NCBI RefSeq assembly: GCF_007988905.1 | Contig: NZ_BJVA01000020.1 | Span: 1 to 41,980, forward strand | Source: Gluconobacter kanchanaburiensis NBRC 103587 | GTDB taxonomy: Bacteria > Pseudomonadota > Alphaproteobacteria > Acetobacterales > Acetobacteraceae | Length of the DNA stretch: 41,980 bases | Reading direction: 5' to 3' | Shown: piece by piece, positions 279 through 28,556 of the stretch | How the letters are laid out: the number at the start of each line of letters is the position of its first letter | Position numbering within the stretch: the stretch's first letter is position 1 | Program-made: the position numbers and the translations under genes | Notes under the pieces: generated by a model | What the model was told of the DNA's origin: nothing | What the model saw: only the letters and a program-made list of their open reading frames with translations | Databases searched by the model: none

Positions 279-3122
<2,844 letters not shown>

Positions 3123-3133
<11 letters not shown>

Positions 3134-3320
3134 TCTGAACGGCGAGATCGTCAGGACACAGGCCCGGACGCTGGCCGACCTGCTGACCGAACAGGGTTTC
3201 GATGCCCCCTGCGTGGCGACGGCCTTGAATGGTGATTTCATTGCCCGTTCCATGCGTGATGCAACCCGTCTGGACGAGGGCATGAAGGTCGAAGTCCTGT
3301 CTCCGATGCAGGGAGGCTGA
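3123..3320 (+). CDS. thiS: Sulfur carrier protein ThiS
   Basis: A 65-aa ubiquitin-like protein ending in Gly-Gly. The ThiF-type enzyme adenylates this C-terminus, which is then converted to the thiocarboxylate that gives sulfur to ThiG. The sequence opens MRIDLNGE and ends SPMQGG, both typical of ThiS. A second in-frame ATG six bases upstream (3117) would add only Met-Arg. The gene overlaps the end of thiO and stops one base before thiG. Confidence 0.94.
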
Positions 3321-3321
3321 C

Positions 3322-6408: not shown

Positions 6409-6420
6409 GCCGACGGCTCA
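6406..6420. repeat. 15-bp perfect palindrome covering two convergent stop codons
   Basis: TGAGCCG-A-CGGCTCA. The left arm begins with the thiD stop TGA and the right arm ends with TCA, the stop of the opposing ROK repressor gene. The arrangement could act as a compact bidirectional hairpin at the junction of two operons only 9 bp apart. There is no T tract on either side, so it is not a classical terminator. Confidence 0.55.
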
Positions 6421-7641
6421 GCGATGATCGAACGGTCGTTCGTCGCTGCCGACCTGACGGAGATACAGATGACGAAAGTCAGGTTTCGTATTGACGAAAA
6501 CCGGCAGCGTCATGCCGCCGATGACAGGACCATCGGTGAGGAGCGTTGCGGTTGTCAGACGGGGTAATTCCCGCTCCCGGATAGCGCTTAACGAGGGGAG
6601 GAGCGGATAGGCGCGTTCAACCAGTGCCGACAGGACCGAGTGCGGAAAGCCGCCGCTGAGAAAAATCGTTTCGGGATCAAAGGCCGTCTCCACGATCGCA
6701 ACCAGAACGCGCAGGGTTCTTGCAGCTGTCTCCATCCAGTGCATGAGGGCGCTGTCGCGGCGGGCGTGCATGTTGCCAATGGCCTCTGGTGTCAGTTCCG
6801 CGACCGGACAGCGCAGCATGCGGGCGATCGCATGGAGGGAAAGCTGGTCATCGATTACGTTCCCCGCGCTGTCGGGCACACAGAGCGAGAGCGGCAGAAG
6901 ACCGAGCTCGCCCGCGTTGCCACGCGCCCCTTTCATGGGCATGCCGTCCACGACGATGCCGGCTCCGGTTCCATATCCGATATAGATCAAAACGGCATTT
7001 CGCGGTGAGATGCCGGGATGAGAAAACAGTTCGGCCATCGCGGCCGCGGTCGCGTCATTTTCCATGAGGACGGGCAGGCCCAGCAGGGAGCCAAGTTTGC
7101 CCGCCATATCAAAGCCGCGCCACAGATCCCAGCCCGGCATGGTCATCTCGGCTTCATACGTATCCGCGTTCAGCGTCGGAAGAACGAGGCCTATTCCCCA
7201 GATCTTGTGTTTTTCGATACCGCTCTCACGGATCATCGTTTCCGCAAGACGTGCCATGACTGTCGCCGTAGCCGTGGGATCGGTTGTCTCTCCCGTCCAC
7301 TCGATCCGCTGGCGGATATTGAGCAGAAGATCGCCGAGGACAACGGAAATCCGCCCCTGATCAACATGCATCCCCAGCGAATATCCCGCATCCGGATTGG
7401 GGGCGAGATAGGTCTGGGGCTGGCCGCGCTGGCCTACGGATTTGCCGACCTCGTGGATCAGACCCTGCGTCAGAAGTTCGCGGGTGATCCCTGAGATCGT
7501 CTGCGGTTTGAGGCCGATGCGGTCCGCGATATCCACGCGGCTCAGCGGCCCCGCCTGATGGAGAAGCTCGAAGATCAGGCGACGGTTGTAAATCCGGGAA
7601 TAGGCCTGCCCGGCACCGTCTGATCTCGTATTTTCAGTCAT
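6418..7641 (-). CDS. ROK-family transcriptional repressor
   Basis: A 407-aa NagC/XylR-type regulator. Residues about 20-75 are a winged helix-turn-helix (LSRVDIADRIGLKPQTISGI...). The rest is a ROK sugar-binding domain with EMTMPGWDLWRG, ENDATAAAMAEL and GYGTGAGIVVDGMPMKGARG. The zinc motif CxCGxxGC expected after GNAGELG is absent (the stretch reads LCVPDSAGNVIDD), so the zinc-stabilised site is not conserved. It is the last gene of the mannanase/ABC operon (ATGA overlap with the permease) and so probably the local, sugar-responsive repressor. Its ligand is unknown. Confidence 0.88.
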   Translation of the reverse strand: MTENTRSDGAGQAYSRIYNRRLIFELLHQAGPLSRVDIADRIGLKPQTISGITRELLTQGLIHEVGKSVGQRGQPQTYLAPNPDAGYSLGMHVDQGRISVVLGDLLLNIRQRIEWTGETTDPTATATVMARLAETMIRESGIEKHKIWGIGLVLPTLNADTYEAEMTMPGWDLWRGFDMAGKLGSLLGLPVLMENDATAAAMAELFSHPGISPRNAVLIYIGYGTGAGIVVDGMPMKGARGNAGELGLLPLSLCVPDSAGNVIDDQLSLHAIARMLRCPVAELTPEAIGNMHARRDSALMHWMETAARTLRVLVAIVETAFDPETIFLSGGFPHSVLSALVERAYPLLPSLSAIRERELPRLTTATLLTDGPVIGGMTLPVFVNTKPDFRHLYLRQVGSDERPFDHR

Positions 7642-8465
7642 TTGACAGCCCCCGCAGTCAGACCGGAGGCAATGCGGTTCTGAAAGAACAGGACGAGCAG
7701 GATCGGAGGGAGAGTGGCGAGGAGAGATGCGGCCATGATGGTTCCGAAAGGAAGTTCAAACCGGCCTGGGGCGGAAATCAGTCCGATACCGACCGGGAGG
7801 GTACGGGCTGAGTCGTTCAGTGTGAAGGTCAGGGCAAAAAGAAACTCGTTCCAGCATGTCATGATGTTCAGAAGTCCTGTGGCGGCAATTCCCGGCCAGA
7901 CGAGTGGCAGATGAATGCTGAGGATACGGCGCGTCAGGCCACAGCCATCAAGTTTTGCAGCGTCGTCCAGTTCTGCCGGAAGGTCCCGGAAGAAGCCGCT
8001 CAATAACCAGATCGTGAAAGGCAGGGCAAAGAACAGATCAGCGAAAATGAGGCTTCCCACATGGTCATACAGCCCCAGGGCCGAGATCAGTTCAAAAAGT
8101 CCCGACAGGATGGCGATCGGGGGCAGCATGGAACACAGGAGCAGAAGAACCAGTATCGTTTTCCGGCCGGCAAAGGTCATCTGCCCAAGGGCATAGGCGG
8201 CGGGAATGCCAAGAATGAGGGACAGGAGTGTAATCGAACCGGCGCAAAGGACCGAGTTGAATGTCTCCCGCCACAGCGCCGGACCGCCAAGAACTGTTCT
8301 GTAATTGCCGAGATCCGGTGTGGTGAGCAGGGCCGTGGAAAAGAGTGTGGTTCCGTGACGGAAGGACGTAACCAGCGCCCAGTAGAGAGGGAAAAGGGTA
8401 TGCAGGAGGATGAAAGCCAGCATGATCAGGCGTCCGGCTCCCGGCATGTCCGTTGTCACTCTCAC
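7638..8465 (-). CDS. ABC sugar transporter permease, MalG-type
   Basis: An inner-membrane permease of about 275 aa with six predicted hydrophobic helices. The cytoplasmic EAA loop reads DDAAKLDGCGLTRRI followed by HLPLVWPG, the site that contacts the ABC ATPase. The chosen GTG start overlaps the stop of the preceding permease (GTGA); an ATG at 8447 would remove six residues. The open frame continues upstream to about 9200, but that stretch is antisense-free read-through of the neighbouring permease in another frame. It pairs with the MalF-type permease to import a mono- or oligosaccharide bound by the protein encoded at 11191-12531. Confidence 0.9.
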   Translation of the reverse strand: MRVTTDMPGAGRLIMLAFILLHTLFPLYWALVTSFRHGTTLFSTALLTTPDLGNYRTVLGGPALWRETFNSVLCAGSITLLSLILGIPAAYALGQMTFAGRKTILVLLLLCSMLPPIAILSGLFELISALGLYDHVGSLIFADLFFALPFTIWLLSGFFRDLPAELDDAAKLDGCGLTRRILSIHLPLVWPGIAATGLLNIMTCWNEFLFALTFTLNDSARTLPVGIGLISAPGRFELPFGTIMAASLLATLPPILLVLFFQNRIASGLTAGAVK

Positions 8466-9376
8466 GAGGAACGCAGCCACGTGGGAACCTTCAGGCACAT
8501 CGCATAGAGAACGCCTGCAAGACCGATAATGCCAAGGGTCCCGAGCGCCGCTGCTGCGCCATAGCCAGGTGCGCCGAACTGGACGATCTGGGTCTGGACG
8601 AATGCCGAGAGGGTCATGCCACCTGTATCCGTTCCGTACAGCACACTGGCCAGATCGAACATCCGCAGCGCATCCAGCAGACGGAACAGCACGGCAATGG
8701 ACAGGACCGGGGCAACAAGGGGCAGGGTTATGGCGATGAAGCGCTGCCGGGCAGAGGCACCATCCAGTCTGGCCGCTTCGAGAACATCCGTGGGGATGGA
8801 CTGCAATCCTGCAAGCGAGAGCAGGGCCATGAAGGGCGTGGCCTGCCAGAAATCTATGGCGACCATGACGGCGATCATGCTGCGCGGATGGGTGGTCCAG
8901 GCCCCCCCCTGATGCAGCAGACCGGCGCGGACCAGCAATGCGTTGATGATGCCGTACTGGTCGTTGAGCATCCAGTTCCACAGCCGTGCGGCTACCACCG
9001 CGGGTACGGCCCAGGGCAGAAGGATGATGGCAAGTAGAATGCCCCGGGTCCTCATGCCGTAGCCCTGAAGAAACCCCGCAATCGCCAGCCCTGCACAGGT
9101 TTCGCTGATGACGGCTGCGGAGGCGAAAAGCAGGGTCGTGCCGACGGCTTTCCACCATGCCATGTCCTGAAGAAGCGTTCTGAAATTGGTCAGGCTCCAC
9201 CCCGGCTCTGCCGGCATGAAGCCGTGTGGATCATCATGAAACGCAAGCCAGACTGTCCGCGCGAACGGGAGAGCGATCACCCCTGCCAGAACGATCATGG
9301 CCGGGGCAACGAGAGCCCAGGGCCGCCAGTCGAAACTCCTGAATGCAAGCCTCATCGGGCGCGGTACAGTCAGCAC
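8462..9376 (-). CDS. ABC sugar transporter permease, MalF/UgpA-type
   Basis: A 304-aa inner-membrane protein with about six transmembrane segments, the first at residues about 20-42. The EAA loop reads DVLEAARLDGASARQRF followed by ITLPLVAPV. The start is taken at GTG 9376, 7 bp after the kinase stop. ATG 9355 (MRLAFRSFDW) is a good alternative, since neither has a clear Shine-Dalgarno. It is the partner of the MalG-type permease. No ATP-binding subunit is encoded in the operon, so an MsmK/UgpC-like ATPase from elsewhere must energise it. Confidence 0.9.
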   Translation of the reverse strand: MLTVPRPMRLAFRSFDWRPWALVAPAMIVLAGVIALPFARTVWLAFHDDPHGFMPAEPGWSLTNFRTLLQDMAWWKAVGTTLLFASAAVISETCAGLAIAGFLQGYGMRTRGILLAIILLPWAVPAVVAARLWNWMLNDQYGIINALLVRAGLLHQGGAWTTHPRSMIAVMVAIDFWQATPFMALLSLAGLQSIPTDVLEAARLDGASARQRFIAITLPLVAPVLSIAVLFRLLDALRMFDLASVLYGTDTGGMTLSAFVQTQIVQFGAPGYGAAAALGTLGIIGLAGVLYAMCLKVPTWLRSS

Positions 9377-9383
9377 GGAGCAG

Positions 9384-10325
9384 TCAGTCCGCCGCCAGCG
9401 CGCTTAGCGCCGCACCGATGATGCCGGACTGTTCGCCCAGCCCGGCGATCAGGATGGGAATGTCCGCACAGGACCGCTCCCAGATATTCGCGCGGACATG
9501 TTCCTCCAGTTTCTGACGGTACAGCCCCTCGGAGCATCCCAGGCCGCCCCCCAGAACAATTTTCTCGGGGTCGAGCATGTTGATGGTCTGGGCGATGAGA
9601 CGGCCTGTCATGTCGGCGGCATCCTCGATGACGCTCCGGGCGAGCGTGTTTCCCGCAGAGGCAAGGGTTTCAAGCGTATGTCCCCCTTCCTTCAGGCTTT
9701 CACCGCCCCGCGCGGCCCACAGGCGCTCCATCCCCAGTCCGGACGCGAAATCCTCTGGAATGGCGACGCTAAGACGGCCGCGATCCTGTGTGGGAACGGC
9801 AAGGGCGGAACTGGCAAAATGAATGGCGAACCCGTGTGTTCCTTTGTAGGGACGCCCCTTGAGGCACAGCGTATAGCTGATTCCCGATCCGAGCGAGAAA
9901 TAGGCAAAACTGTCGCAGGACTGTCCTGAGCCAAAACGGGCTTCCGCGAATGCCGCGGCCCTGACATCGCTTTCCAGACGAACGGAAACCCCTGTGCGTT
10001 CACGGATGATACCTGCGAGACCGGGAAGAGCGAAATTCCAGGTGCTGCGGATCTGTCCCTGCCTGTCAACAAGTTCCGGTACCGCAATGCCCGCTGTCTG
10101 CGGCATATCCTCCGGACCGTTGGCATCCCGCCGGGCATCGGTCAGGACCTGCGTGACGACATCGCTGATATCGGAAACGATTTCGTCCGGTGTAACATGA
10201 CGCCGTGTGGGAATGCGCGTGAGAAAACGGATGTCTCCCGTGCTGGGATCGACAACGCCCGCAGCGATCTTGGTGGCACCAACATCAATTCCGAGAACCG
10301 GGGTGCAGGAGAGGGAAACGGTCAC
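9384..10325 (-). CDS. ROK-family sugar kinase
   Basis: A 313-aa protein of the actin-like ATPase fold. It has the N-terminal phosphate loop GIDVGATKIAAGVV, a DVRAAAFAEARFG segment whose Asp is in the catalytic-base position (ESD), SLGSGISYTLCLKG, and a C-terminal VLGGGLGCSEGLY adenosine motif. No DNA-binding domain is present, so it is an enzyme rather than a regulator. The family zinc motif CxCGxxGC is missing. GTG start overlaps the isomerase stop (GTGA). It probably phosphorylates the imported sugar; the substrate cannot be read from sequence. A mannose- or glucose-like hexose fits the adjacent mannanase. Confidence 0.86.
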   Translation of the reverse strand: MTVSLSCTPVLGIDVGATKIAAGVVDPSTGDIRFLTRIPTRRHVTPDEIVSDISDVVTQVLTDARRDANGPEDMPQTAGIAVPELVDRQGQIRSTWNFALPGLAGIIRERTGVSVRLESDVRAAAFAEARFGSGQSCDSFAYFSLGSGISYTLCLKGRPYKGTHGFAIHFASSALAVPTQDRGRLSVAIPEDFASGLGMERLWAARGGESLKEGGHTLETLASAGNTLARSVIEDAADMTGRLIAQTINMLDPEKIVLGGGLGCSEGLYRQKLEEHVRANIWERSCADIPILIAGLGEQSGIIGAALSALAAD

Positions 10326-11194
10326 AGGCCGAGCCGTTTCAGCACGTTTCTGTTGTGCCGTGCGATGGGAAGAGGCTTGTCAGGCGCACAGGGATACATG
10401 TCCTGTTCGACGACGATAAAACCATCGAAGTTCCGTTCGCGCAGGAAATCCACGACTTCGCCAAAGTCCAGAACGCCTTTGTCCAGTTCGCACATCACAC
10501 CGTTCTGGAAAACGTCCATGAAGGGTGTTCCCGCAGCCATTGCCTTGGCATGGATGTCTCCGTCCAGATTCTTGAAATGATAATACGGGATGCGCGATGC
10601 GTGCTGCCGCATGAAAGCGAGGGCGTCCGCGCCCGTATAGGCATGGTGGCCGAAATCGAAGCAGAGTTCGACCTGATCGGCGGGCGTGTCATTCAGGAGC
10701 CGCAGAATTTCAGCTTCGGTCTCGATGGCGGTGCCGACATGAGGATGGAACAGGAGGCGCAGGCCGTGCTCCTGCCGGATTTCCTGCGCGATCGTCGTGA
10801 TGACATGCATCATGCGTCCCCAGACCCCGGATGTTGCGATCCGGGCCTGAGGGGTAAGATACGCGTCGGAATCGTCCATCAGCAGCAGCCACGGAGTGCC
10901 CGTGGCAACCAGGTTCCGGCACAGGGGGCGCAGCCGTTCCCGCAGCGTCGCCAGAGCATCCGGGGCACTCAGGGAATGGACGACCGCTGCGCCGCAAAGG
11001 CCGAGGCAGCGACTGGACAGGGCATCCTGAAGCTGCACGGGATCAGTCGGCAGATAGCCCCACGGTCCCAGTTCGGTCCAGTCATAGCCGGATGCGGCAA
11101 CCTCATCGAGATAACGCTCCCAGGGGGTCTGCTTTGGGTCGCTGGCATACCAGACGCCCCAGGCGTCAGGTGCTGTGGCGGTTCGGAAGGTCAT
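10322..11194 (-). CDS. Sugar phosphate isomerase/epimerase (xylose isomerase-like TIM barrel), IolE-like
   Basis: A 290-aa TIM-barrel protein of the AP endonuclease 2 / xylose isomerase superfamily. Several stretches look like 2-keto-myo-inositol dehydratase (IolE): DPKQTPWERYLDEVAASGY near the start, LGPWGYLPTDP, LLFHPHVGT, CFDFGHHAY, YYHFKN, and EQDMYP...PLPIARHNR at the end. The His, Asp and Glu in these motifs are the usual divalent-metal ligands. IolE activity is a guess by resemblance; an epimerase or isomerase acting on another sugar is equally possible. ATG overlaps the stop of the binding-protein gene (ATGA). Confidence 0.82.
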   Translation of the reverse strand: MTFRTATAPDAWGVWYASDPKQTPWERYLDEVAASGYDWTELGPWGYLPTDPVQLQDALSSRCLGLCGAAVVHSLSAPDALATLRERLRPLCRNLVATGTPWLLLMDDSDAYLTPQARIATSGVWGRMMHVITTIAQEIRQEHGLRLLFHPHVGTAIETEAEILRLLNDTPADQVELCFDFGHHAYTGADALAFMRQHASRIPYYHFKNLDGDIHAKAMAAGTPFMDVFQNGVMCELDKGVLDFGEVVDFLRERNFDGFIVVEQDMYPCAPDKPLPIARHNRNVLKRLGL

Positions 11195-12531
11195 GGCTGT
11201 TGTCTCTCAATGAGTGAACTGGAAGAGGATCGGAAAGGGGACTGTCGCGACCACTGACCCAGCAGGGCAAGACGTTGCAGATCGGAAACAAGCTCGGTAA
11301 GGGCCTGTTGCGTGACCCCCGGAGTACGAAGAACATCCTTGAAGCGGTTCGCCATCATCCATGAGACGCGGGGATAATCGACGCCCGTCTGCGCCACGGG
11401 ACGCAGCTCCAGCGATGACAGGGCGGGGCGAATGGTGTCGAGGATGGGGATCGCGCGCCGGACTTCAGGATCGTCCAGAAGGTCCGTTCGGGCGGGGATA
11501 TAGCCTCCTGCAAGCGCCTGATGGCGTTCGGTGCTGCCGCTGGTCAGAAAACGCAGCAGGGAGAGGGCTTCGGCCGCATGCTCCGTATTGCGTGCGATGC
11601 CGAGATAGACTGTGCCGTCCATCCCCGTTGCGGAACTCGTGGCATCCCGTGGAAGGGGGGCAACGCCGATCTTTCCCGAGACCGGGCTGTCGGGATTGTT
11701 GGCGAGGGCCCAGGCATACACCCAATTCCGCATGAACACTGCCTGACCCGACTGAAAAATACCGCGGGCATTTTCCTCGTCGTAATTGAGAACGCCGGGA
11801 GGAGAGACCGTTCCGACCCAGTGAGCGGCCCGCATCAGGGCATGCTGCAGTCCGGGCAGACTGTTTTTGACCGTTCCATCGGCTTCGACCGGATTTTCCG
11901 AAGCGTCCCATTCCAGAACATTGCAGACAAGACTTTCCGTTGTCCGACCCTGCCACACATACCCCCAGACCGGGCGGCCTGCCTGACGTTCGGCGCTCTG
12001 GATGAACGCTGCGGTCCGTTCCAGTTCGTCCCAGTGCGTCGGAACGGGCATGTGGTAGCGCTCAAGAAGGTCACGACGATAGAACAGCAGACCGATGTCG
12101 CGGTACCAGGGAAGGGCGACCCGCCGACCCCCGACCTGAAAAAGACCGGGCTGGATGCCTCTGTCATCGTCGGCAGGAGGAATATCAAGAAGAAGCGGCG
12201 CCAGGGTTCCGATCCAGGTACTATCAAGGATCAGGATATCGGCAGCAGGGTGGGCGGCCGGGAGAAGCTGCCGATACAGTGGCAGGACTGTTCCCCAGTC
12301 AGACGGAAGGGCTATGACCCTGACCTCCTGTCCCGTTTTCGCCGTCCAGGTTTGAACGGCCTGATGGCACAGTGACAGCTCGGTGCCACTGGAAGAGCAG
12401 AAAATGGTCAAAGGAGCGGCTTCGGCCGAACGTGTGGCGACCATTCCTACCAGAAGCGCGCCGCAAAATATCCATGAACGGCATTTCTGCTTCCTGCGCA
12501 GGAAATCTCTTCGATATTCTCGCTTTCTCAC
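11191..12531 (-). CDS. ABC transporter sugar-binding protein, family 1
   Basis: A 446-aa extracellular solute-binding protein. A basic N-terminus and hydrophobic stretch (about residues 19-34, ending RSAEA) make a signal peptide for the periplasm. The remainder has MalE/ThuE-type features: ADILILDSTWIGTLAPLL, ALPWYRDIGLLFYRRDLL, GIFQSGQAVFMRNWVYAW and a GYIPAR segment near the C-terminus. The GTG start overlaps the mannanase stop (GTGA). It should deliver a mono- or short oligosaccharide to the two permeases. Its position after a secreted GH76 enzyme suggests mannose or manno-oligosaccharides as ligand (inference). Confidence 0.89.
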   Translation of the reverse strand: MRKREYRRDFLRRKQKCRSWIFCGALLVGMVATRSAEAAPLTIFCSSSGTELSLCHQAVQTWTAKTGQEVRVIALPSDWGTVLPLYRQLLPAAHPAADILILDSTWIGTLAPLLLDIPPADDDRGIQPGLFQVGGRRVALPWYRDIGLLFYRRDLLERYHMPVPTHWDELERTAAFIQSAERQAGRPVWGYVWQGRTTESLVCNVLEWDASENPVEADGTVKNSLPGLQHALMRAAHWVGTVSPPGVLNYDEENARGIFQSGQAVFMRNWVYAWALANNPDSPVSGKIGVAPLPRDATSSATGMDGTVYLGIARNTEHAAEALSLLRFLTSGSTERHQALAGGYIPARTDLLDDPEVRRAIPILDTIRPALSSLELRPVAQTGVDYPRVSWMMANRFKDVLRTPGVTQQALTELVSDLQRLALLGQWSRQSPFRSSSSSLIERQQP

Positions 12532-13709
12532 GGCGTTTCCGCACTCCGGGTCAGAGCATCAGCCATGAAGAGAGAGGCCGCCGTAATCTGAGCCTGTACC
12601 GACGGGTGAAACGGCCTGTCGCTCCATGTGTCGCTGATTCTGGTGCCCGCTTTTCTGGTCGCCCAGGCAGATCGTGCCTGTTGCGACAGCCAGGCTGCTA
12701 TTTCGGTACATGCTGCGGCGTCGATTCCGGTTGCTGCAATATGCCCAAGTGCCCGAACGAAGATACCGCGAAAAATCCTCGCATCCGTGTTCATTGGTCC
12801 GCCGGGCTCCCTGAACGCTCCGGCCGCTGGTGTGAATGCCCGAATGGCGGCCAATGCAATCCGTAACGCTGTCTGTTGGGGCGCACCGTCGTTCGTTAGT
12901 GGGACAATTTCCAGAAGTCCATCAAGAATAACGCCCTGATTATAGCTGTAAGCCGGACCGCCATTATTGCGGCACCGGCTGTCCAGCCCATCACTGATCA
13001 GGTTGGCGGACGTGATCATTCCGCTCTGCCGAAACCATGCCCAGCTTTTGAGGGCCCAGTTTTTGTAAGCAGGATCATGCGTGGCCTCGTAGAGCCGCGC
13101 CGCCGTGCTCAGAAAAAGCTCGTTGGTGATGGCGTTCTTGTAAGTCCGCGCATGATCCCACCAGACGCCGCCTCCGCAATGCCCGTCCCAGTATTTTGAG
13201 GCAATGGTATCGAAAATGGCGCGTGCATCCTGAGCCTGGCTCGGGTTGTGAGTGAGGCGCACCATGTCGAGATCGGCCTGTGCAACCCACAGGTCATCGT
13301 CGTTTCCATCAAGACCCCGACGGTTCTGAAGTGCGCGTAAAGCAGTACGGCGGAAGAGAACGTTTCCTGAGAGGGCTTCGTAATCCGTCAGCATACTGAC
13401 TGTCACAAAACGCTGCCAGGCATGCAGTCCCCGCCAGTCCGGGCCGTCAGGCATGCCGTAGCGGGTCATGAGTGTCTGGAGTGTTTTCTCAGCCCGTTGC
13501 TGATTGACGGTGGGAGCATCGTGCGACTTCCGGGAGGTCTGTGCGCAGGCATTCCGCACAGAAAGTATTGTGCCGGACGCCAACAGGGTCAGCAGAGCAA
13601 TCATCCCGACTGCACGGCCGGTCCATCTCCGCCCAGCTCGCATGTGAGCTGAGGGTTTTTCAGCCTGAAATCCTGTGGGGCCTGGGCGGGGCGAAGAACA
13701 GTCTGGCAT
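12528..13709 (-). CDS. Secreted glycoside hydrolase family 76 (alpha-1,6-mannanase-like)
   Basis: A 393-aa protein with the (alpha/alpha)6-barrel motifs of GH76: the acidic triplet NDDDLW at about 136-141, which holds the catalytic aspartate pair, GGGVWWD, YKNAITNELFLSTAARLY and YNQGVILDGL. Known GH76 enzymes cut alpha-1,6-mannan backbones of yeast or mycobacteria; the fungal members process GPI glycans. An N-terminal hydrophobic stretch (about 33-56, ending NACAQ) exports it. ATG 13709 gives an unusually long N-region; ATG 13643 (MRAGRRWTG) gives a tidier signal peptide. It is the first gene of the operon. Confidence 0.9.
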   Translation of the reverse strand: MPDCSSPRPGPTGFQAEKPSAHMRAGRRWTGRAVGMIALLTLLASGTILSVRNACAQTSRKSHDAPTVNQQRAEKTLQTLMTRYGMPDGPDWRGLHAWQRFVTVSMLTDYEALSGNVLFRRTALRALQNRRGLDGNDDDLWVAQADLDMVRLTHNPSQAQDARAIFDTIASKYWDGHCGGGVWWDHARTYKNAITNELFLSTAARLYEATHDPAYKNWALKSWAWFRQSGMITSANLISDGLDSRCRNNGGPAYSYNQGVILDGLLEIVPLTNDGAPQQTALRIALAAIRAFTPAAGAFREPGGPMNTDARIFRGIFVRALGHIAATGIDAAACTEIAAWLSQQARSAWATRKAGTRISDTWSDRPFHPSVQAQITAASLFMADALTRSAETP

Positions 13710-14045: not shown

Positions 14046-14238
14046 CGGTCTTATAACATTGAAATACCTAGATATCCCCCTGTTTGTATGGAGATGTTCA
14101 TAAGAATCACGATCGGTCTCGGGGGATGTCAAAAAGGGTTTTTGGGTGTCATGATAGTTTCATCAAGTTCCCGTTGCTAAACAGGCCTGCTGTCCAATAA
14201 ATCAACTCCGGGAAATTAATTCGCGGCAGGGATCATTC

Positions 14239-15336
14239 ATGATGGTGAAACGGGTAACTCTCGGGCTGATCGGTGCTGGCGAAGTGGCCCAGCTCATTCA
14301 TCTCCCGATTCTTCACCAGTTGTCGGATCGGTTTGAGGTTGTTTCGCTCTATGATCCGTCCCCTTCGGTCGCGCAAATGGTAGGCGCGCACTGGGGCGTG
14401 CCGCATATCCATACCGATATCGAAAGCTTTTTCTCTGATCGGGTTTTTGATGCCGTCATGGTCCTTAGTCCGGATCAGTACCATGCCGAACATGCGCGCA
14501 TGGCATTTGCGGCCGGACTGCATGTTTTTCTCGAAAAACCGGCCTGCCTGACGGAAGCGGAATTCAGTCTGCTGAACGCCGATTTTGAACGCGCCGACCG
14601 TGTAGGTATGGTCGGTTACATGCGCTGTTATGCGCCGGCGTTCCAGAAAGCGCGTGCGTTGCTGCCGGAATTCGGTCCGATCCGCCATGTCCGCATAAGG
14701 GACGTTATCTGCGAAGGGCCATGGTTTTTTGGACAGGTAACGCCCGTCGTTGTGCCGGAAGGCGATATCCCGGCCGATCTGCTGGATTCCGGCCGACGGG
14801 CACGACGCGATGCTCTTCTCTCCGTGTGCGGAGCAGATGCTTCACCGTCGCTTTTGCGGGGATATGAAGTTCTGACCGGGCTGGGCATTCATGCTTTCTC
14901 AGCGATGCGGGTTCTGCTGGGTAGCCCCGTTCGTGTGATTGCGGCGCATTTTGGCGCCACGGGAACGGAAATCAGTATCTGGTTTGATTATGGAAATTTC
15001 ATCGCGTCTTACGAATGCCTGATTGACGACGTTGCACGATTTGAGTCGTCCATTGAAATACTGTCGAACACGCAGAGCCTCAAGGTTCGTTACGACACGC
15101 CGTATATCCGGAACCTGCCCGCAGGGGTCACTTTTCAGGAAACTGTCGGGGCCGGGAACCGTGTGACGGAATATGGTCCATATTACCAGGATCCTTTCAA
15201 CGCCGAACTGATCGCGTTTTACGATGCCGTTGTGGCGGGTGTAGCGCCTGTCGATCGGTTTTCGAATGCGCTCGCTGATCTGACCCTGTGCCGGCAGATT
15301 ATCGAAGCCGCAAAAACCACCATGTCGCCCGCCTGA
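14239..15336 (+). CDS. Gfo/Idh/MocA-family NAD(P)-dependent oxidoreductase
   Basis: A 365-aa cytosolic dehydrogenase. The N-terminal Rossmann fold has LGLIGAGEVAQLIHLP (about 8-23) and the family signature EKP at 99-101 (VFLEKPACLTEAE), whose lysine is the usual catalytic/nucleotide residue. The C-terminal half is the alpha/beta domain, with GYMRCYAP and GIHAFSAMRVLLG. Members oxidise inositol, glucose or related polyols. The substrate here is unknown, but an IolE-like gene across the promoter and a PI-PLC/phytase downstream make an inositol-type substrate attractive. The start is ATG 14239 or 14242, with CAGGGA upstream. Confidence 0.85.
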   Translation: MMVKRVTLGLIGAGEVAQLIHLPILHQLSDRFEVVSLYDPSPSVAQMVGAHWGVPHIHTDIESFFSDRVFDAVMVLSPDQYHAEHARMAFAAGLHVFLEKPACLTEAEFSLLNADFERADRVGMVGYMRCYAPAFQKARALLPEFGPIRHVRIRDVICEGPWFFGQVTPVVVPEGDIPADLLDSGRRARRDALLSVCGADASPSLLRGYEVLTGLGIHAFSAMRVLLGSPVRVIAAHFGATGTEISIWFDYGNFIASYECLIDDVARFESSIEILSNTQSLKVRYDTPYIRNLPAGVTFQETVGAGNRVTEYGPYYQDPFNAELIAFYDAVVAGVAPVDRFSNALADLTLCRQIIEAAKTTMSPA

Positions 15337-15421
15337 GGCCACGTCTTTCCAACTGAAATCGACGCATGAGCAGGATCTTCCGGATGGGGAGGCTGTTCGT
15401 GTGTCCGCTGGAGAAATTCTG

Positions 15422-18325
15422 ATGTCCAAATCTTACCGGCAGCCTTCGCCCTGGAAGGCGTTCAGCTGTCTTATTCCGGTGGTGATTGCAGGGGTCCAGC
15501 TCGGACATCCGGCAGCGGCCGAGACGAAATCGTTCAAGAAAGTTCATGCCCGCAAGGCTTTGAAAGCGCATGAGGTTCCTGTCGTTGCCCATGCAAAACC
15601 TGCTGTGCCTGCCCCGGTTGTGGCACCGTCCGGGCATGCTGCCCCAAGCGATCTGGTGAGCCATGATCAGGAGCAGATGCATGTCACGGGGTTCGGCACA
15701 TCTTCAGGACGGCAGCTTAAAGCACCTAATGAAATGATGAGCCTGAGCGCAAAGGATCTTGCACGTCTGCCGGCGCAGAACGTGACGGAAGCGCTGGCTC
15801 GGCTGCCGGGCGTCACCGTCATGCCGACCAGCATGCAGGGCAATTTCGGCGGTATCGATACCGCTGCCCGTGGGGCAGGGGCCACGGTGTCCCTGCGTGG
15901 CATGAACGGGCAGTATAATATCAACCAGATCAACGGGATCGATGTTGCGGAAGCCGCACCGTTCAGCCGGACCGTATCTCTGGATCTGTTGCCGCCCACC
16001 GGTTTTTTCCGGATTGATGCCAATAAGACGCTGACCCCGGGCATGGACGGAGACGCGATCGGCGGTATCGTCAATTTCGAGATGCCGAATGCGTTCGATT
16101 ATGGCCACGGGACGCACGGTTCCGTGCAGCTTGGCGGTCAGTATAATGAAAAAGCCGCCGATTATGGTGCGAGCGCCATCGGTGGAAATGGTGCGGCGGA
16201 AATTTCTTCGGTTTTCGGAAAGTCGGATGAATTCGGCTTTTACATGAGCGGATATTACAACCAGCGCTATTTCGCGGCCGGGGAGCAGACTTATTCAGGC
16301 GGCGAATGGGGTGTCTCGCGTGCGATGAATGCGCAAGGTGAGCTTTATCCCGGACAGGACCCGGTCAAAAGCCTTCAGCTTTTCGGCGTCGATCCCCAGG
16401 CCAGTATTGGTGTTACGAAGCGCTATGGCGGCACCGCAGGCTTCGAATGGCGCCCCGACAGTGCCACACGCGTATATATCCAGGGAACGGAATCCTATTC
16501 GGACACACAGCAGGACATTTATCAGGTCGCGGTGCATGGTAATGATGGCGGTGCTGCGGATAACGGCATGATTTCTTATGTAGAGCAGGCTGACGGCTCT
16601 TACGCGCCTTCCATCACGAGAACAAACGTCCATTACTGGTACGAAACAAACCCGACACTGGAACAGCTTGGCACGATGAAGCTGGGTATGGACAAGAAGC
16701 TCGGCCGCTTTTCCATTTCTCCCTCAGCATTCCTGAGCTGGGGCACGATCAGTCGCGATCATATCGAGACATCTGCCTGGAATTCGGGTGAAACCACTTT
16801 TGAAGGCTCCCCCAATTTCGTTTACCGGGACGGAATGCCCACACTGGGACTGACAGCAGCGCAGGCGGCGGTTGCGAATAATACGCTGAATTTTCCGTCC
16901 CATAACCGCGGCGAATATGTTCAGTCCGACGCCTGGCAGCTTCGCACAGGCGCATCGCTCGACATGAGTTACCGTCTTGAGAAATTTCATATCGACACGG
17001 TTTCCGCGGGCTTTAAATACCAGACAAGCTGGCGCAATTACGTCAATCGTGACACCGAAGGTCAGGATAACGGGGGCTCAGGCGGCTATCCCGCCGGGGG
17101 AACGCTCGCGCAGAGCGGTGTTGTGGATGGCGGACTGTCCTCGCTTATTCCGGGTGCCTATAATTTCTACACGCCGACCATCAGTCGTTCCGTTCTTCTC
17201 GGTAAATATCTGGCCGATCCGTATAACTGGAAGTATATGGACAGGGATTCCTGGAATGGAAATACGATCGGCGGGACGGAAAGCGTTTATGCCGGGTATA
17301 TTTCCGCGCAGATGCATTTCGGAAAGCTTCAGGTCGTCCCCGGCATCCGGTTCGAACAATCCGACCTGCACAATACGTATTGGGCCAGTGGTAATGAAGG
17401 CGTATCGACCGCCGATGCCCATTACGGCTGGTCGGCCAGCAACAGCCATTACTTCAAGGCACTGCCGAGCATTCACCTGACCTATCGTCCCTGGCAGGAC
17501 ACCGTCTATCGCGCATCCGTCTGGACCAGCTATACGCGCCCGTCTTTCTTCCAGCTCAGTGGTGGCTCCCAGACCACACGTAATGATGACGGCACGCTGA
17601 ACATCACGACGGGCAATCCAAACCTCAAGGCCACAACCGCCGTCAACTACGATCTGTCATGGCAGTGGATGCCGAGTTCGACCACGAGCGTTTCAGTGGC
17701 CGGGTTCTACAAGCAGCTTTCCAACTACATCTATGACAACGGCGGGTCGTATAATAACCAGACTACGACCGCAGGGATCGCCAACAGCGTATCCCACCCT
17801 GAAAACGGGGGAAGTGCTACGCTTTTTGGTGTGGAATTCGCGTTCGAACATCAGTTCAAGGGATTACCTGCTCCTTTTGACGGGTTGGGTGTCCGCGGTA
17901 CGGCGACCTGGGAAATGTCCCGTGCGCATCTGAACAACGCCTATCTCAGCCCGACGGAAAATATGCAGGATGCACCGCGCTGGATGACCAATGCCGGAGC
18001 TTTCTACAACAAGGGACCGTTCCAGTTCGATGTGAACTGGCGCTTTGTGGATGCATATCTGTACCAGTATGGCCTGTGGGGGACGCCCAACAATTTCAAG
18101 ACGAACCTGAACAGCAGTTCGCTGAATGCGTGGGTGCAGCCGAGCCTGAATCTGGATGCACATATTGGTTATGCGGTGACCAAGCGGCTGCATGTGGATT
18201 TCTCGGCGCAGAACCTTGGTGTGAATCGTTTCTATCGTCTGACGATCGGGCGGCACAGCAATGCGGTTCCGCAGAACATCCTGACGTCCCGGACTTTCTT
18301 CCTGAACGCCGGTTATCGTTTCTGA
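15422..18325 (+). CDS. TonB-dependent outer-membrane receptor (Caulobacter/Xanthomonas type)
   Basis: A 967-aa protein with a signal peptide ending near GHPAAA. A proline/alanine-rich linker carries a possible TonB box (EQMHVTGFG). A plug domain follows (RLPAQNVTEALARLPGV, TVSLRGMNGQYNINQING), then a long beta-barrel ending in YRF. NPNLKATTAVNYDLSWQW and FGKSDEFGFYMSGYY put it in the TonB_Xanth_Caul-like group, which often imports carbohydrates or organic phosphates rather than siderophores. ATG 15422 has GGAGA 7 nt upstream; a GTG at 15401 is less likely. It is paralogous to the receptor at 24611-27577. It lies between a dehydrogenase and the PLC/phytase fusion. Confidence 0.93.
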   Translation: MSKSYRQPSPWKAFSCLIPVVIAGVQLGHPAAAETKSFKKVHARKALKAHEVPVVAHAKPAVPAPVVAPSGHAAPSDLVSHDQEQMHVTGFGTSSGRQLKAPNEMMSLSAKDLARLPAQNVTEALARLPGVTVMPTSMQGNFGGIDTAARGAGATVSLRGMNGQYNINQINGIDVAEAAPFSRTVSLDLLPPTGFFRIDANKTLTPGMDGDAIGGIVNFEMPNAFDYGHGTHGSVQLGGQYNEKAADYGASAIGGNGAAEISSVFGKSDEFGFYMSGYYNQRYFAAGEQTYSGGEWGVSRAMNAQGELYPGQDPVKSLQLFGVDPQASIGVTKRYGGTAGFEWRPDSATRVYIQGTESYSDTQQDIYQVAVHGNDGGAADNGMISYVEQADGSYAPSITRTNVHYWYETNPTLEQLGTMKLGMDKKLGRFSISPSAFLSWGTISRDHIETSAWNSGETTFEGSPNFVYRDGMPTLGLTAAQAAVANNTLNFPSHNRGEYVQSDAWQLRTGASLDMSYRLEKFHIDTVSAGFKYQTSWRNYVNRDTEGQDNGGSGGYPAGGTLAQSGVVDGGLSSLIPGAYNFYTPTISRSVLLGKYLADPYNWKYMDRDSWNGNTIGGTESVYAGYISAQMHFGKLQVVPGIRFEQSDLHNTYWASGNEGVSTADAHYGWSASNSHYFKALPSIHLTYRPWQDTVYRASVWTSYTRPSFFQLSGGSQTTRNDDGTLNITTGNPNLKATTAVNYDLSWQWMPSSTTSVSVAGFYKQLSNYIYDNGGSYNNQTTTAGIANSVSHPENGGSATLFGVEFAFEHQFKGLPAPFDGLGVRGTATWEMSRAHLNNAYLSPTENMQDAPRWMTNAGAFYNKGPFQFDVNWRFVDAYLYQYGLWGTPNNFKTNLNSSSLNAWVQPSLNLDAHIGYAVTKRLHVDFSAQNLGVNRFYRLTIGRHSNAVPQNILTSRTFFLNAGYRF

Positions 18326-18420: not shown

Positions 18421-20673
18421 ATGCGGAACACAGCCATGATCTCTTTTCCCCTTGCGTCGCGTCTGGCCATCGCCCTCATGGCGGCGGGAGGTGTCCTGAC
18501 AGCCACAGGCGCTGTGGCGCAGGACAGTCTACGGCTGGATCAGCTCCAGGTGATCGGTTCGCATAACAGCTATCATGCCGGGCTGGACCCTGCGATCCGC
18601 TCCAGGCTTCTGGTTTCTGATCCTGACCTCGTAAAGGAACTGGATTATCAGCATCCGTCATTGACGGCCCAGCTTGATGGCGGCGTCCGGCAGCTTGAAC
18701 TGGATCTCTATTCGGACAGGGCAGGTGGACGTTTCGCCCATCCGCATCGACCCGGTATTCCGGGAGAGGCGTGGCCGCTGTCGTTATCGGATCAGGCCGT
18801 CATGAACCAGCCCGGGTTCAAGGTCATGCACATTCCGGACCTTGACCAGCATGCAAGCTGTCAGCCCCTGCTCAGATGCCTGGGGCAGATCCGGGACTGG
18901 TCCAACGCCCATCCGGATCATGTGCCGGTTTTTGTCATTCTGGAAGTCGAGCAGCATAACGACGTCCCCGGCGGAACGGATGTGGAGCCGTTCGATGCGT
19001 CGTCATACGATGCGCTTGATGCGGCCATCCGCAGCGTATTTCCTCCTTCCGGGATCGTGACGCCGGACGATGTGCGGGGCGATGCTCCCGATCTGCGCGC
19101 GGCAATTCTGGACAGGGGATGGCCTGCCCTGAAACAGGCGCGTGGTAAGGTGATTTTCCTGCTGGATCAGCGGAATGACCGAACGCTTTACCTGAAGGGC
19201 CATCCGTCGCTTCGCGGGCGCGTGGCCTTCACGAACGCCGATCCACAGGCGCCGGATGCTGCGTTCACGGAACTCAATGACGGGCCGGCTGCCGACATTG
19301 CGGCACTTGTGCGCCGTCATTTTCTGGTCCGGGCACGGGCTGACGCCGATACGGTCGAGGGGCGTTCCGGGGACGGACAGCGTCGGGATGCGATCCTGGC
19401 CAGCGGAGCGCAGATTGTCAGCACGGATTACCCGGATGCCGAGCCTGCACGATGGAGCGGCTACCATGTCGGATTTCCTGAGAATACCCCAGCTCGCTGC
19501 AACCCCGTTTCCGCGCCGCCCGCGTGCCAGTCTCGTTTGATCGAACCACCCGCTCAGGGAGATTTTCATCTCACGCGGATGATCATGGTGATGCGCCATG
19601 GAATTCGTTCCCCGCTTGTCGGTCAGGTGCCTCCCGGCGTTGGAATTCCCGGAGGATGGCCGGCATGGAAGGGCGCGCCGGGCGATCTGACAGCACACGG
19701 CGCTGTGGGGATGATGGCGCTTGGAACCTTTGACCGGACCTGGATGACGGATGCGGGACTGATTCCGGCAAAAACCTGCCCGGCAGCAGGGAGCGTGGCC
19801 GTCCGCGCCAACTCTTCCGCCCGGACGATTGCCAGTGCCGAGGCTTTCGTGCGCGGTTTCATGCCGGGTTGTCCAATAACCGTCCAGCACAAGCCGCTTG
19901 GGCAGCCGGATGTTCTGTTTTCGCCGCTGGATGCGGATCCGGGGAGGTTCGACATGCGTGCAATCGTGCCGCAACTGCCTGATGCAGAACGGATTTTCCG
20001 CGAGAGGGAAGCAGCCCTCAGACTTCTGGGCAATGTTCTGACCTGTGCTCCAGGCGCCTGTGATTTTCTGCATGCGCCTGCGCATATTGCTGCCGATGCT
20101 ACGGGACATCAGCTTGTGCTGTCGGGGCCGGTCGCGCAGGCCTCGTCGCTGTCAGAAGCGCTCATGCTGGCGTATCTGGACGGACGTCCTCTTTTGCAGA
20201 CTCCATCCGGCACTCTGGATGTTGGACAGCTTGGGACATTGAGTGCGTTGCATGCCGGGATGCTGGAAGCGGTGGTCCGTCCGCGGGCGCTGGCCGAACT
20301 GTTGTCGCGCGACATGAGAACGCGGCTGCTCAAGGATCTCATGCAGGAAGACGGTCCTGTATTCAGACTGTATATGGGACACGACGACACGATCGCCCCG
20401 CTTCTGACCATGCTGGGAATTCATATCCGTGTTCCGGGTTATGCGGAGGATGAAATTCCCATCGGCTCGGCTCTGGGTTTTGCGGTGTATGATAACGGGA
20501 ACGGAGAGCGACGTGTACGTCTCCTGATCCAGTCCCAGACACCCCAGGCTCTTCGCGAACCTGATAGGGCTGAACTGCCTGTCGTGCTCTACCCGCAGGT
20601 TCCTGACTGTATCCTTTCCGGCGGAATGTGCCTTCTGGAAAATCTCGCAGGCCGCCTCTCGGCGTCGCTTTAG
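18421..20673 (+). CDS. Exported fusion of Ca2+-dependent PI-PLC-like domain and AppA-like histidine acid phosphatase (phytase)
   Basis: A 750-aa protein with a signal peptide ending at GAVAQ (about 34). Residues about 40-345 resemble the SaPLC1-type phosphoinositide phospholipase C: GSHNSYH (His48), QLELDLYSD, FKVMHIPDLD (His137) and VILEVEQ, with two active-site histidines in the expected places. Residues about 384-745 are a histidine acid phosphatase: RHGIRSP (392-398), an AppA-like WPAWKG...LTAHG and NSSARTIASAEAF, and GHDD with His654 and Asp655. The two activities in series would cut phosphatidylinositol and then strip phosphate from the released inositol phosphate. The start could also be ATG 18436. 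It follows a TonB receptor. Confidence 0.88.
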   Translation: MRNTAMISFPLASRLAIALMAAGGVLTATGAVAQDSLRLDQLQVIGSHNSYHAGLDPAIRSRLLVSDPDLVKELDYQHPSLTAQLDGGVRQLELDLYSDRAGGRFAHPHRPGIPGEAWPLSLSDQAVMNQPGFKVMHIPDLDQHASCQPLLRCLGQIRDWSNAHPDHVPVFVILEVEQHNDVPGGTDVEPFDASSYDALDAAIRSVFPPSGIVTPDDVRGDAPDLRAAILDRGWPALKQARGKVIFLLDQRNDRTLYLKGHPSLRGRVAFTNADPQAPDAAFTELNDGPAADIAALVRRHFLVRARADADTVEGRSGDGQRRDAILASGAQIVSTDYPDAEPARWSGYHVGFPENTPARCNPVSAPPACQSRLIEPPAQGDFHLTRMIMVMRHGIRSPLVGQVPPGVGIPGGWPAWKGAPGDLTAHGAVGMMALGTFDRTWMTDAGLIPAKTCPAAGSVAVRANSSARTIASAEAFVRGFMPGCPITVQHKPLGQPDVLFSPLDADPGRFDMRAIVPQLPDAERIFREREAALRLLGNVLTCAPGACDFLHAPAHIAADATGHQLVLSGPVAQASSLSEALMLAYLDGRPLLQTPSGTLDVGQLGTLSALHAGMLEAVVRPRALAELLSRDMRTRLLKDLMQEDGPVFRLYMGHDDTIAPLLTMLGIHIRVPGYAEDEIPIGSALGFAVYDNGNGERRVRLLIQSQTPQALREPDRAELPVVLYPQVPDCILSGGMCLLENLAGRLSASL

Positions 20674-22780: not shown

Positions 22781-22890
22781 ATCCAGACGTCGATCGCCTG
22801 CACGGCCTGCAGATGTCAGCCCGGGGGATGTCATGAAACTGTCAAGTGTTCCCGCGTTGAAAACAGCTACATGCAGACGCGCTCACGCTC

Positions 22891-23502
22891 ATGCAGGTTG
22901 CTGGATTGGAAGATTTTTCAGACAATAGTTCCGGGCAGAACGCGAAAATCGAATGGCTCTCCCGGCATATCATCCCTCACGAGGGAGCCCTGCGGGGATG
23001 GCTGGCGCAGTTTCGCGACATCGATGTCGATGATGTCGTGCAGGAATGCTACGCGATGCTTCTGGACATCGAGACCGATCGGATCCGTACACCCCGCGCC
23101 TATCTTTTTCGGATGGCCCGCAATGTGGTGCTTCAGAGTTATCGGCGCGCGCGGATTATTTCCATCACCGCACTGGCGGATTTCGACACCCTGAGCATCA
23201 TGGATGATGCGCCGTCGCCTCACGACGTGATCGAGGCACGGCAGGAGCTGGAAAACCTTCATCAGATGGTAACCCAGCTTCCGGAACGCTGTCGGCAGGT
23301 TTTGTTGCTGCGCCGGCTTGAAGGATTGTCACAGAAACAGGTTTCGGAGCGGTTGGGCATTTCTGAGAACATCGTCGAAAAGCAGGTGGCCCGTGGATTG
23401 CGTGCCCTCAGCCGCCTGTTTTCGGATGAAAACAGGGTGACTGCGCGCCCGTGCCCACGCTCCGGGTCTCGCGGGAAGGTAACGACAGTCGTTGACAGGT
23501 AA
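22891..23502 (+). CDS. ECF sigma factor, FecI-like
   Basis: A 203-aa sigma-70-family protein. Region 2 (about 38-105) includes DVDDVVQECYAMLLDIE and TPRAYLFRMARNVVLQSYRR. Region 4 (about 125-180) includes LPERCRQVLLLRRLEGLSQ and SERLGISENIVEKQVARGL. It precedes a FecR-type gene, overlapping it by 11 nt, and an STN-domain TonB receptor. This is the usual FecI-FecR-FecA layout, in which an extracellular ligand bound by the receptor releases the sigma factor. ATG 22891 lacks a strong Shine-Dalgarno, so the exact start is uncertain. Confidence 0.92.
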   Translation: MQVAGLEDFSDNSSGQNAKIEWLSRHIIPHEGALRGWLAQFRDIDVDDVVQECYAMLLDIETDRIRTPRAYLFRMARNVVLQSYRRARIISITALADFDTLSIMDDAPSPHDVIEARQELENLHQMVTQLPERCRQVLLLRRLEGLSQKQVSERLGISENIVEKQVARGLRALSRLFSDENRVTARPCPRSGSRGKVTTVVDR

Positions 23503-24490
23503 GGAACTGAAGGGAAACCCGGTTGACGCCATAGCCTTTGAGTGGGTGGCGCGGTCTGACAGAGCACCGCTTCATGATGCCGAACGTGCGGCCCTGAAGG
23601 CGTGGCTCGAACAGGATGTCCGGCATCGTGGGGCGTTCATTCGTGCGCGTGCGCTGTGGGCGTCAGCAGAGCGGCTGGCAGCGTTTCAGGGCATGTCGTC
23701 GTCTCCTGTGTCGTTACCCTGTGTGCCTTTGCCCGTTACGCGTCCCCTTGCAGCATCTGTCTCCCGTCGCGAGACCCGTCTGACGACAGGGCGGCGCTCT
23801 TTTGTCCGAATGGCGATTGCGGCCGGAATGGCAGGGATGGCGTTGGTGCCCGGATCTCCTGCCGAAGCGGCGCGTGTCTATCAGGCGCGCGATGGCCTGA
23901 TGCATCTGCATGACGCGCATTGGGGTGACATCCTGCTCGATCAGGGTGCGCTGCTGCGGGTCCGCGAAGGACGCGGGCAGCCCTGCCTGGATCTGCTGGA
24001 AGGGCAGGTGCATCTGATTGCCGGCAATACGGATATGCAGCTCAACATGAACGGGCTGTCTCTTGTCCTGCCGCGCGCTGCCAGTCTGATGGCTCATGCC
24101 GGAAGCGGTGAAAGCGATGCCCTCGTCATGGCGGGGAATATTTCTGCGCGCTGCGCCGGGGAGCGTACCGGGCGGCTTCTGCATGCCTGCGACTGGATCC
24201 GTTACGACCACCGGCATGTTTCGATAAAGAAGGTTTCCCGGAATGATATTGACCGTTTGACGGCCTGGAGTCGGGGTCTGCTGGAATTTCGCTCCGTCGA
24301 GGTGGTGTCAGCCATCGCGCAGATTAATCGCTACAATGCCCGGAAGATCGCCTTGAAAAACTCCCGCTTGGGCGGAGAAAGAATCAGTGGTGTGTTCTCG
24401 CTCAACGATCCGGAGGCTTTTGCGCGTGTGCTGGGGGAAATCTTTGGCGCGGAAATTCTGATGTCTTCCGGCGGGATCACTCTGCGGTGA
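23492..24490 (+). CDS. FecR-family anti-sigma factor / sigma regulator
   Basis: A 332-aa membrane protein. The N-terminal cytosolic domain (about 12-60, AIAFEWVARSDRAPLHDAER) is the DUF4880 sigma-binding unit. RRSFVRMAIAAGMAGMALV (101-119) is a twin-arginine-like motif leading into the single membrane segment. A periplasmic FecR domain follows, then a C-terminal STN-like DUF4974 domain (about 262-332) that meets the receptor's signalling domain. The reading frame opens at a TTG within the end of the sigma gene, and no better start is visible. It should hold the ECF sigma factor until the receptor at 24611 signals. Confidence 0.92.
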   Translation: MTGKELKGNPVDAIAFEWVARSDRAPLHDAERAALKAWLEQDVRHRGAFIRARALWASAERLAAFQGMSSSPVSLPCVPLPVTRPLAASVSRRETRLTTGRRSFVRMAIAAGMAGMALVPGSPAEAARVYQARDGLMHLHDAHWGDILLDQGALLRVREGRGQPCLDLLEGQVHLIAGNTDMQLNMNGLSLVLPRAASLMAHAGSGESDALVMAGNISARCAGERTGRLLHACDWIRYDHRHVSIKKVSRNDIDRLTAWSRGLLEFRSVEVVSAIAQINRYNARKIALKNSRLGGERISGVFSLNDPEAFARVLGEIFGAEILMSSGGITLR

Positions 24491-24610
24491 GAGCGTCGCG
24501 CCATGTCGGGCAGTGAGCGTGTAAGAAAAGCTTCATAACAGCAGGGCGGCGGATTTTCGCGTGCGTCACACCGTTTGGGCGAACCTATCCATACGGGGAT
24601 CCAACCTGCT

Positions 24611-27577: not shown

Positions 27578-27581
27578 GTCT

Positions 27582-28427: not shown

Positions 28428-28556
28428 ATTTTGACCGGAAGGGTTTCCTTCAGGCTCATGCCATCCCCTGGTCATAATAACTTAACTTTTAATCGTCGGC
28501 CGTTCTGACGGACAACGCTCACGGCACAAAGGGCCTTGGTGAAAAGGGAGGATGCC

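Follow-up and report, generated by a model that had tools for sequence, protein, structure and literature searches.

A PI-PLC-C1/histidine acid phosphatase fusion of Acetobacteraceae and its receptor- and mannan-associated loci

Related enzymes and utilisation loci

The Ca2+-dependent phosphatidylinositol phospholipases C (PI-PLCs) of the SaPLC1 type and from Pseudomonas have been solved as single-domain enzymes (PDB 3h4w and 5fyo/5fyp/5fyr; PF16670). The protein described here, from Gluconobacter kanchanaburiensis NBRC 103587, differs from them in that a second catalytic domain is fused to the phospholipase C (PLC), and its locus differs in holding a TonB-dependent receptor (TBDR) and mannan genes. 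This second domain falls in the AppA/Agp branch of histidine acid phosphatases (PF00328; PDB 1dkp, 4ars, 1nt4, 3ntl), to which it is ~25% identical, and is set apart from it by its place behind a PLC, by scores below both equivalog cut-offs and by Leu-Val where Hafnia phytase has Thr-Lys. Both enzyme families are known; neither their fusion nor the type of locus was found described among the literature matches listed, and a search of the open-licence literature returned no description of a PI-PLC/acid phosphatase fusion in the titles and abstract beginnings of those matches.

Two kinds of described locus resemble the surroundings of the fusion. Bacteroides-type alpha-mannan utilisation loci combine GH92 or GH76 enzymes with a TonB-dependent receptor, as do most of the fusion loci, though in Acetobacteraceae these glycoside hydrolases are tied to a PLC-phosphatase fusion. 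The phosphate utilisation systems (PUS) of Flavobacterium johnsoniae place a TonB-type outer-membrane transporter beside a PF16670-type phosphodiesterase, include a PF00149 phosphoesterase and are induced by phosphate depletion, but they consist of separate genes with SusCD, and neither a fusion nor a mannan hydrolase is seen in the available part of the source, whose table apparently mixes up names and Pfam numbers between the PF16670 and PF00149 genes (PMC8115612).

Architecture and conservation of the fusion protein

In the window, by which we mean the whole stretch of 41,980 nucleotides that was analysed, the fusion comprises the following features:

18421..20673, plus strand: PI-PLC-C1/histidine acid phosphatase fusion, read as 750 aa; the ATG at 18436 is probably the conserved start
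18436..18519, plus strand: putative Sec-type signal peptide, to AVA|Q34, by eye
18529..19506, plus strand: PI-PLC-C1 domain, residues 37-362, with H48, N49, E93, D95, H137 and E175
19564..20670, plus strand: histidine acid phosphatase domain, residues 382-750, with RHGIRSP (392-398), R468, H654 and D655

A sequence-only reading had described one uninterrupted frame of 750 codons that joins a signal peptide, a PI-PLC-like domain and an AppA-like phytase, and most of this description holds. The frame at 18421-20673 is open throughout, and GSHNSYH with His48, VMH with His137 and RHGIRSP at 392-398 stand where they had been placed; GHDD is likewise present, but at 653-656, one residue away from the 654-656 first given. 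The proposed signal peptide agrees with a hydrophobic stretch followed by AVA|Q34, recognised by eye, and with low confidence of the predicted structure over residues 1-30 (pLDDT < 50), and from this signal-like start we infer that the protein is exported. Translation more likely begins at Met6 (18436) than at Met1: where the window has Met1 its two nearest relatives read TTG, and the ATG that follows is common to all three.

Both domain assignments were borne out by profile search, each above its curated cut-off. PI-PLC-C1 (PF16670) matches residues 37-362 over the full profile (E 2.2e-123; 412 bits against a cut-off of 29.9), and the branch-2 histidine acid phosphatase profile His_Phos_2 (PF00328) matches in two stretches, the better of which covers 384-500 (E 2.5e-19; 70.3 bits against 23.6). 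The predicted model of the whole protein (pLDDT 89.4, pTM 0.86) contains both folds, and each half has fold matches to its own family. The first half adopts the barrel fold of bacterial Ca2+-dependent PI-PLCs, its nearest fold neighbours being inositol-lipid PLCs, one of which (5fyr) has myo-inositol in its title; the phosphatase half resembles both Agp and AppA, and no match spanning the two halves together was found among the fold matches listed.

Residues of both putative active sites are conserved. All 17 intact fusions aligned keep H48, N49, E93, D95, H137 and E175 in the PLC half, where we take the His pair to be catalytic and the HN and ExD residues to form the Ca2+ site, following the roles given in the PI-PLC literature. 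The same 17 keep R392, H393, R396, R468, H654 and D655 in the phosphatase half, so that conserved residues lie on each side of the junction. Variation in this alignment (A3) includes Ala in place of Pro398 of RHGxRxP in four of the 17, and Asn in place of E175 in three of the non-fused PLCs. A chance origin is excluded by the Pfam E-values, the residues shared by 17/17 and the fold matches of both halves, and the protein is almost certainly an intact fusion of a PI-PLC-C1 domain with an acid phosphatase.

The label of AppA-like phytase fits the phosphatase half as a family resemblance and no further. Its score against the AppA phytase equivalog (NF007552) is 105.1 of 585 bits and that against the Agp glucose-1-phosphatase equivalog (NF007553) 131.6 of 425 bits, both far below the NCBIfam cut-offs, which leaves the name phytase unproven. 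A Thr-Lys pair after RHGxRxP has a role in phytate binding; Hafnia phytase has Thr-Lys at the positions aligned to 399-400, whereas Leu399 is found in 17/17 intact fusions and is followed by V, A, P, S or N. The same genome encodes two more histidine acid phosphatases without a PLC match (G000:C8:82226-83224 and C3:78213-78917), which are 30% and 27% identical to the fused phosphatase, respectively.

Distribution and gene neighbourhood

The fusion was traced in samples of one family and one phylum and among the best 80 of 203 relatives from named genomes. A PI-PLC-C1 gene is present in 30 of 397 Acetobacteraceae genomes, and the fusion recurs intact in 15 of them, at 16 loci, and broken in one more; one survey genome, identified as Gluconacetobacter sacchari by the named-genome scan, has two fusion loci. 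At 19 further loci of this survey the PLC is not fused; of these, L040 and L041 hold broken PLCs, and L062 and L070 are duplicates in a single genome. The phylum-wide sample holds PI-PLC-C1 in 11 of 398 genomes, and in the nine of these outside the family no acid phosphatase match was found in the frame of the PLC. The named-genome scan yielded 17 fusions, 16 of them intact, among the best 80 of 203 relatives, from Gluconobacter, Acidomonas, Novacetimonas, Gluconacetobacter, Brytella, Swaminathania and Asaia and also from Acetobacter senegalensis. The 17 loci of the survey and the 18 formed by the named genomes and the window lie largely on the same contigs, and their counts overlap and are not additive. 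When 92 PLC rows were placed on a tree, rooted at its midpoint and built by a short search with no bootstrap, a single branch with a support of 99 set all 18 fusions, among them that of the window, apart from the rest.

The fusion of Asaia astilbis (L096:7935-10213) is broken by a frame change within its phosphatase half. The tandem PLCs of Novosphingobium (L115, L116), considered as distant fusions on account of a match spanning 2.4 kb, were rejected as such, being two PI-PLC-C1 genes, from different parts of the family tree, with no phosphatase.

A split counterpart occurs in Dyella acidiphila (L102:7833-10270), where PLC and acid phosphatase are separate, overlapping genes; the ATG of the phosphatase, if it is the start, overlaps the TGA of the PLC by one base. 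The Dyella phosphatase has its own signal-like start and Ser instead of H654, the His of the distal HD motif, and a TBDR gene lies divergently at the locus. In the PLC tree the Dyella PLC is one of a group of five rows; this group, the fusions and Neokomagataea diverge from a single fork without branching order. The arrangement in Dyella looks like a two-gene state from which a fusion could arise. In one of the nine genomes outside the family, a 623-aa frame (L072:790-2658) carries PI-PLC-C1 followed by a PAP2 phosphatase-family domain, the latter barely over its cut-off (27.7 bits against 27.2), and is perhaps a separate PLC-phosphatase fusion. Together, the Dyella pair and this PLC-PAP2 frame suggest that placing a PLC beside a phosphatase has been selected more than once.

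Within the window, the fusion is flanked by the following features:

15401..18325, plus strand: TonB-dependent receptor (TIGR01782), on the same strand as the fusion frame, 95 bp upstream
14239..15336, plus strand: Gfo/Idh/MocA oxidoreductase; IolG is its best NCBIfam match, below cut-off and confined to the N-terminal part
14146..14163, plus strand: Pho-box-like site ahead of the MocA, TBDR and fusion genes, matching the strict consensus at 11/14
12528..13709, minus strand: GH76 family protein (alpha-1,6-mannanase family; PF03663), divergent from the MocA gene
11191..12531, minus strand: sugar-type ABC solute-binding protein
10322..11194, minus strand: xylose-isomerase-like TIM barrel, IolE-like; sole NCBIfam match (E up to 1e-5) IolE
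9384..10325, minus strand: ROK family sugar kinase
7638..9200, minus strand: frame whose C-terminal part holds an ABC sugar permease domain
6418..7641, minus strand: ROK family, NagC/Mlc-like regulator

The GH76 assignment is well above its curated cut-off (136.5 bits against 25.9). The MocA-type protein reaches 79.1 of 355 bits against IolG (TIGR04380) and the TIM barrel, over nearly its full length, 135.5 of 290 bits against IolE (TIGR04379; 2.6e-39). A run of thiamine genes occupies 318-6408 of the window (ThiC, an FAD-dependent oxidoreductase, ThiG, thiamine monophosphate synthase, a ThiF-type protein and phosphomethylpyrimidine kinase).

A TBDR gene lies directly upstream of the fusion and on the same strand at 18/18 fusion loci (the window and L081-L097), called by Pfam for the window, L088, L090 and L093 and by a profile built in this analysis for the others. 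An adjacent receptor was considered as a mark of the fusion and rejected, since TBDRs, shorter ones found by Pfam, also lie beside many stand-alone PLCs; a TBDR barrel is present in 18 of 116 neighbour frames of stand-alone PLCs at L098-L160. This tally (A2) drew on 122 frames picked by length, leaving out four very long frames as well as two from L160, which nearly duplicates L157; at L102 and L112 frames with known matches took the place of wrong-strand picks.

Beyond the receptor, most fusion loci are of two types. Nine (the window, L081-L087 and L097) carry on the other side a GH76 gene along with genes for a solute-binding protein and an IolE-like TIM barrel, and have a MocA-type oxidoreductase before the receptor or after the fusion. 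Six (L089-L092, L094, L095) begin with an ECF sigma factor and a FecR-like gene, which are followed by receptor, fusion and GH92; at five of these six Gluconacetobacter loci the inferred GTG start of GH92 overlaps the TGA of the fusion by 4 bases, and at the sixth (L090) it lies at the fusion's stop or 2 bases after it. The stretches fetched for Swaminathania, Asaia siamensis and Asaia astilbis (L088, L093, L096) contain neither GH76 nor GH92.

In the family survey, GH76 (eight loci) or GH92 (six) is close by at 14 of 17 fusion loci as against none of 19 stand-alone PLC loci, in fetched stretches of ~8 to 20 kb. GH76 with E < 1e-30 occurs in nine of the 397 genomes, eight of which have it ~3-5 kb from the fusion (Fisher p 8e-12, a value that ignores kinship), and the ninth (G189) has no PLC match. 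GH92 is found in 23 of the 397 genomes and adjoins the fusion at 6/6 loci of the ECF/FecR type. One GH76 match of a close relative (G279:C12:40280-41155) has an in-frame TGA, and that gene may be decaying. Among the 63 non-fused named loci (L098-L160), searched with one query for each family at E up to 1e-10, GH92 was found at three, directly ahead of the PLC in Nitrospirillum iridis and in Luteibacter and at a distance of one frame in Croceivirga, and GH76 at none within the stretch searched. The link of PLC with alpha-mannosidase extends beyond acetic acid bacteria but is rare outside them, and on these counts the majority of PF16670 genes found elsewhere have no tie to mannan.

The Pho-box-like site at 14146 is matched equally well in 18 of 200 shuffles. 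Such sites lie upstream of nine of the 18 fusions, a count obtained from related, non-independent loci with a consensus loosened after the first matches, and the loosened pattern matches 26 times in 603,925 bases. A second Pho-box-like site in the window (22828-22845; 12/14, with 0/200 shuffles as good) precedes genes at 22891-30167 for an ECF sigma factor, a FecR-like protein, a TonB-dependent receptor, an unassigned protein of 315 aa and a phosphate transporter of the PHO4 type; these may form a further cluster for phosphate uptake. The fusion locus may serve phosphate supply.

Candidate substrates and competing explanations

The combination of an exported PLC and phosphatase, a receptor and an alpha-mannan enzyme fits a substrate that unites mannose, inositol, phosphate and lipid, such as the GPI anchors of mannoproteins or the mannosyl-inositol-phosphoceramides of yeasts. 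Our preferred reading, held tentatively and at somewhat less than even confidence, is that the fusion is a two-step exported enzyme that removes phosphate and inositol-glycan from mannosylated inositol lipids or GPI anchors of fungi, the substrate being suggested by the neighbours. Two enzymes would then act in series within one exported protein, an order that we infer along with both activities: the Ca2+-type PI-PLC half would cut the bond between the lipid and inositol phosphate, and the histidine acid phosphatase half would take off the phosphate left on the inositol (glycan). On a mannosylated inositol lipid or GPI-type anchor of yeasts or other fungi, GH76 or GH92 would trim mannose, the adjacent TonB-dependent receptor would import the glycan or a captured product, the IolG/IolE-like enzymes would process a polyol or sugar, and phosphate shortage may help to switch the locus on. 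Among GH76 enzymes, those of the Dfg5 kind are reported to act on GPI-anchored proteins, and GPI anchors can be recognised by a fungal member of the mixed fungal/bacterial subfamily (PMC12295086), a comparison in which the GH76 of the window is placed at family level (PF03663).

A wider form of the preferred reading, which we regard as rather doubtful, would make the whole locus a dedicated yeast anchor-stripping system, in which TBDR, fused PLC-phosphatase and alpha-mannanase or mannosidase dismantle GPI anchors or mannosyl-inositol-phosphoceramides and yield phosphate, mannose and inositol; no utilisation locus of this kind was found described in the open-licence literature among the matches listed. 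The IolG- and IolE-like neighbours would fit an inositol product. They may do something else, such as 3-keto-sugar chemistry, and a standard inositol pathway is unsupported because both score below their cut-offs and a genome-wide profile search found no IolD above its cut-off; a complete inositol catabolic pathway in this genome, for which IolD and IolE were looked for, was accordingly rejected. A possible special cyclic intermediate of SaPLC1-type enzymes, which stands outside this argument, would bear on 2-O-mannosyl or 6-O-glucosaminyl inositol as substrates; no paper on it was found in the open-licence literature among the matches listed.

Another route had been proposed from the sequence, in which the fusion channels phosphatidylinositol to inositol plus phosphate. 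Its inositol-lipid theme is supported and the reaction is possible, but it leaves the conserved TBDR, GH76/GH92 and IolG/IolE-like neighbours unexplained and is incomplete as an account of the substrate. What these neighbours indicate is an inositol lipid or anchor that carries mannose and is probably of fungal origin. As a rival to the preferred reading, plain phosphatidylinositol (or glycerophosphoinositol) would be used for phosphorus scavenging, with mannan genes as neighbours since yeast debris supplies both. PI-PLC-C1 is named for phosphoinositide hydrolysis and two solved relatives are PI-PLCs; nine of 18 fusions have Pho-box-like sites upstream, three fusion loci have no mannan gene nearby, and neither GH92 nor GH76 is matched at 60 of the 63 non-fused named loci. 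The induction of a PF16670 gene by phosphate depletion in F. johnsoniae (PMC8115612) points the same way. We nevertheless consider this explanation rather unlikely, as it accounts neither for GH76 or GH92 at 14/17 fusion as against 0/19 stand-alone loci nor for the overlap of GH92 start and fusion stop.

The two halves could also act on unrelated substrates, for example a lipid together with a sugar phosphate or phytate, and be joined only because this gives them common export and dosage. The likeness of the phosphatase half, by score and by fold, is to Agp as well as to AppA, and Agp-type enzymes act on sugar phosphates, yet the overlapping pair of Dyella and the PLC-PAP2 frame suggest repeated selection of the PLC-phosphatase pairing itself, and we hold such independence to be distinctly improbable.

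A shift of the PLC-like half to another phosphodiester, such as the mannose-phosphate-mannose of yeast phosphomannan, with the phosphatase removing the resulting sugar phosphate, would agree with the linkage to GH76 and GH92 and with the Agp-like match; it is very unlikely, in that all PI-PLC residues considered are kept and the folds closest to that half belong to inositol-lipid PLCs, including one whose title names myo-inositol. An artefact, in which misassembly or the loss of a stop codon would have created the joint frame, has practically no chance of being the explanation. Nothing was found in its favour, although one relative, that of Asaia astilbis, is indeed broken, and it is refuted by the recurrence of intact fusions at 16 loci in 15/397 genomes, by conserved residues on both sides of the junction and by the one well-supported clade.

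Should the preferred reading of a two-step enzyme on inositol lipids hold, a one-pot conversion of such lipids to free phosphate could serve oil degumming or GPI analysis, and a substrate class would be suggested for the PF16670 enzymes of the fusion clade. It also leads to the testable idea that yeast lipids or anchors could serve acetic acid bacteria as food, an idea that rests on an exported fusion confined to one clade, its split counterpart in Dyella, and its tight link with an alpha-mannan enzyme and a TonB-dependent receptor.
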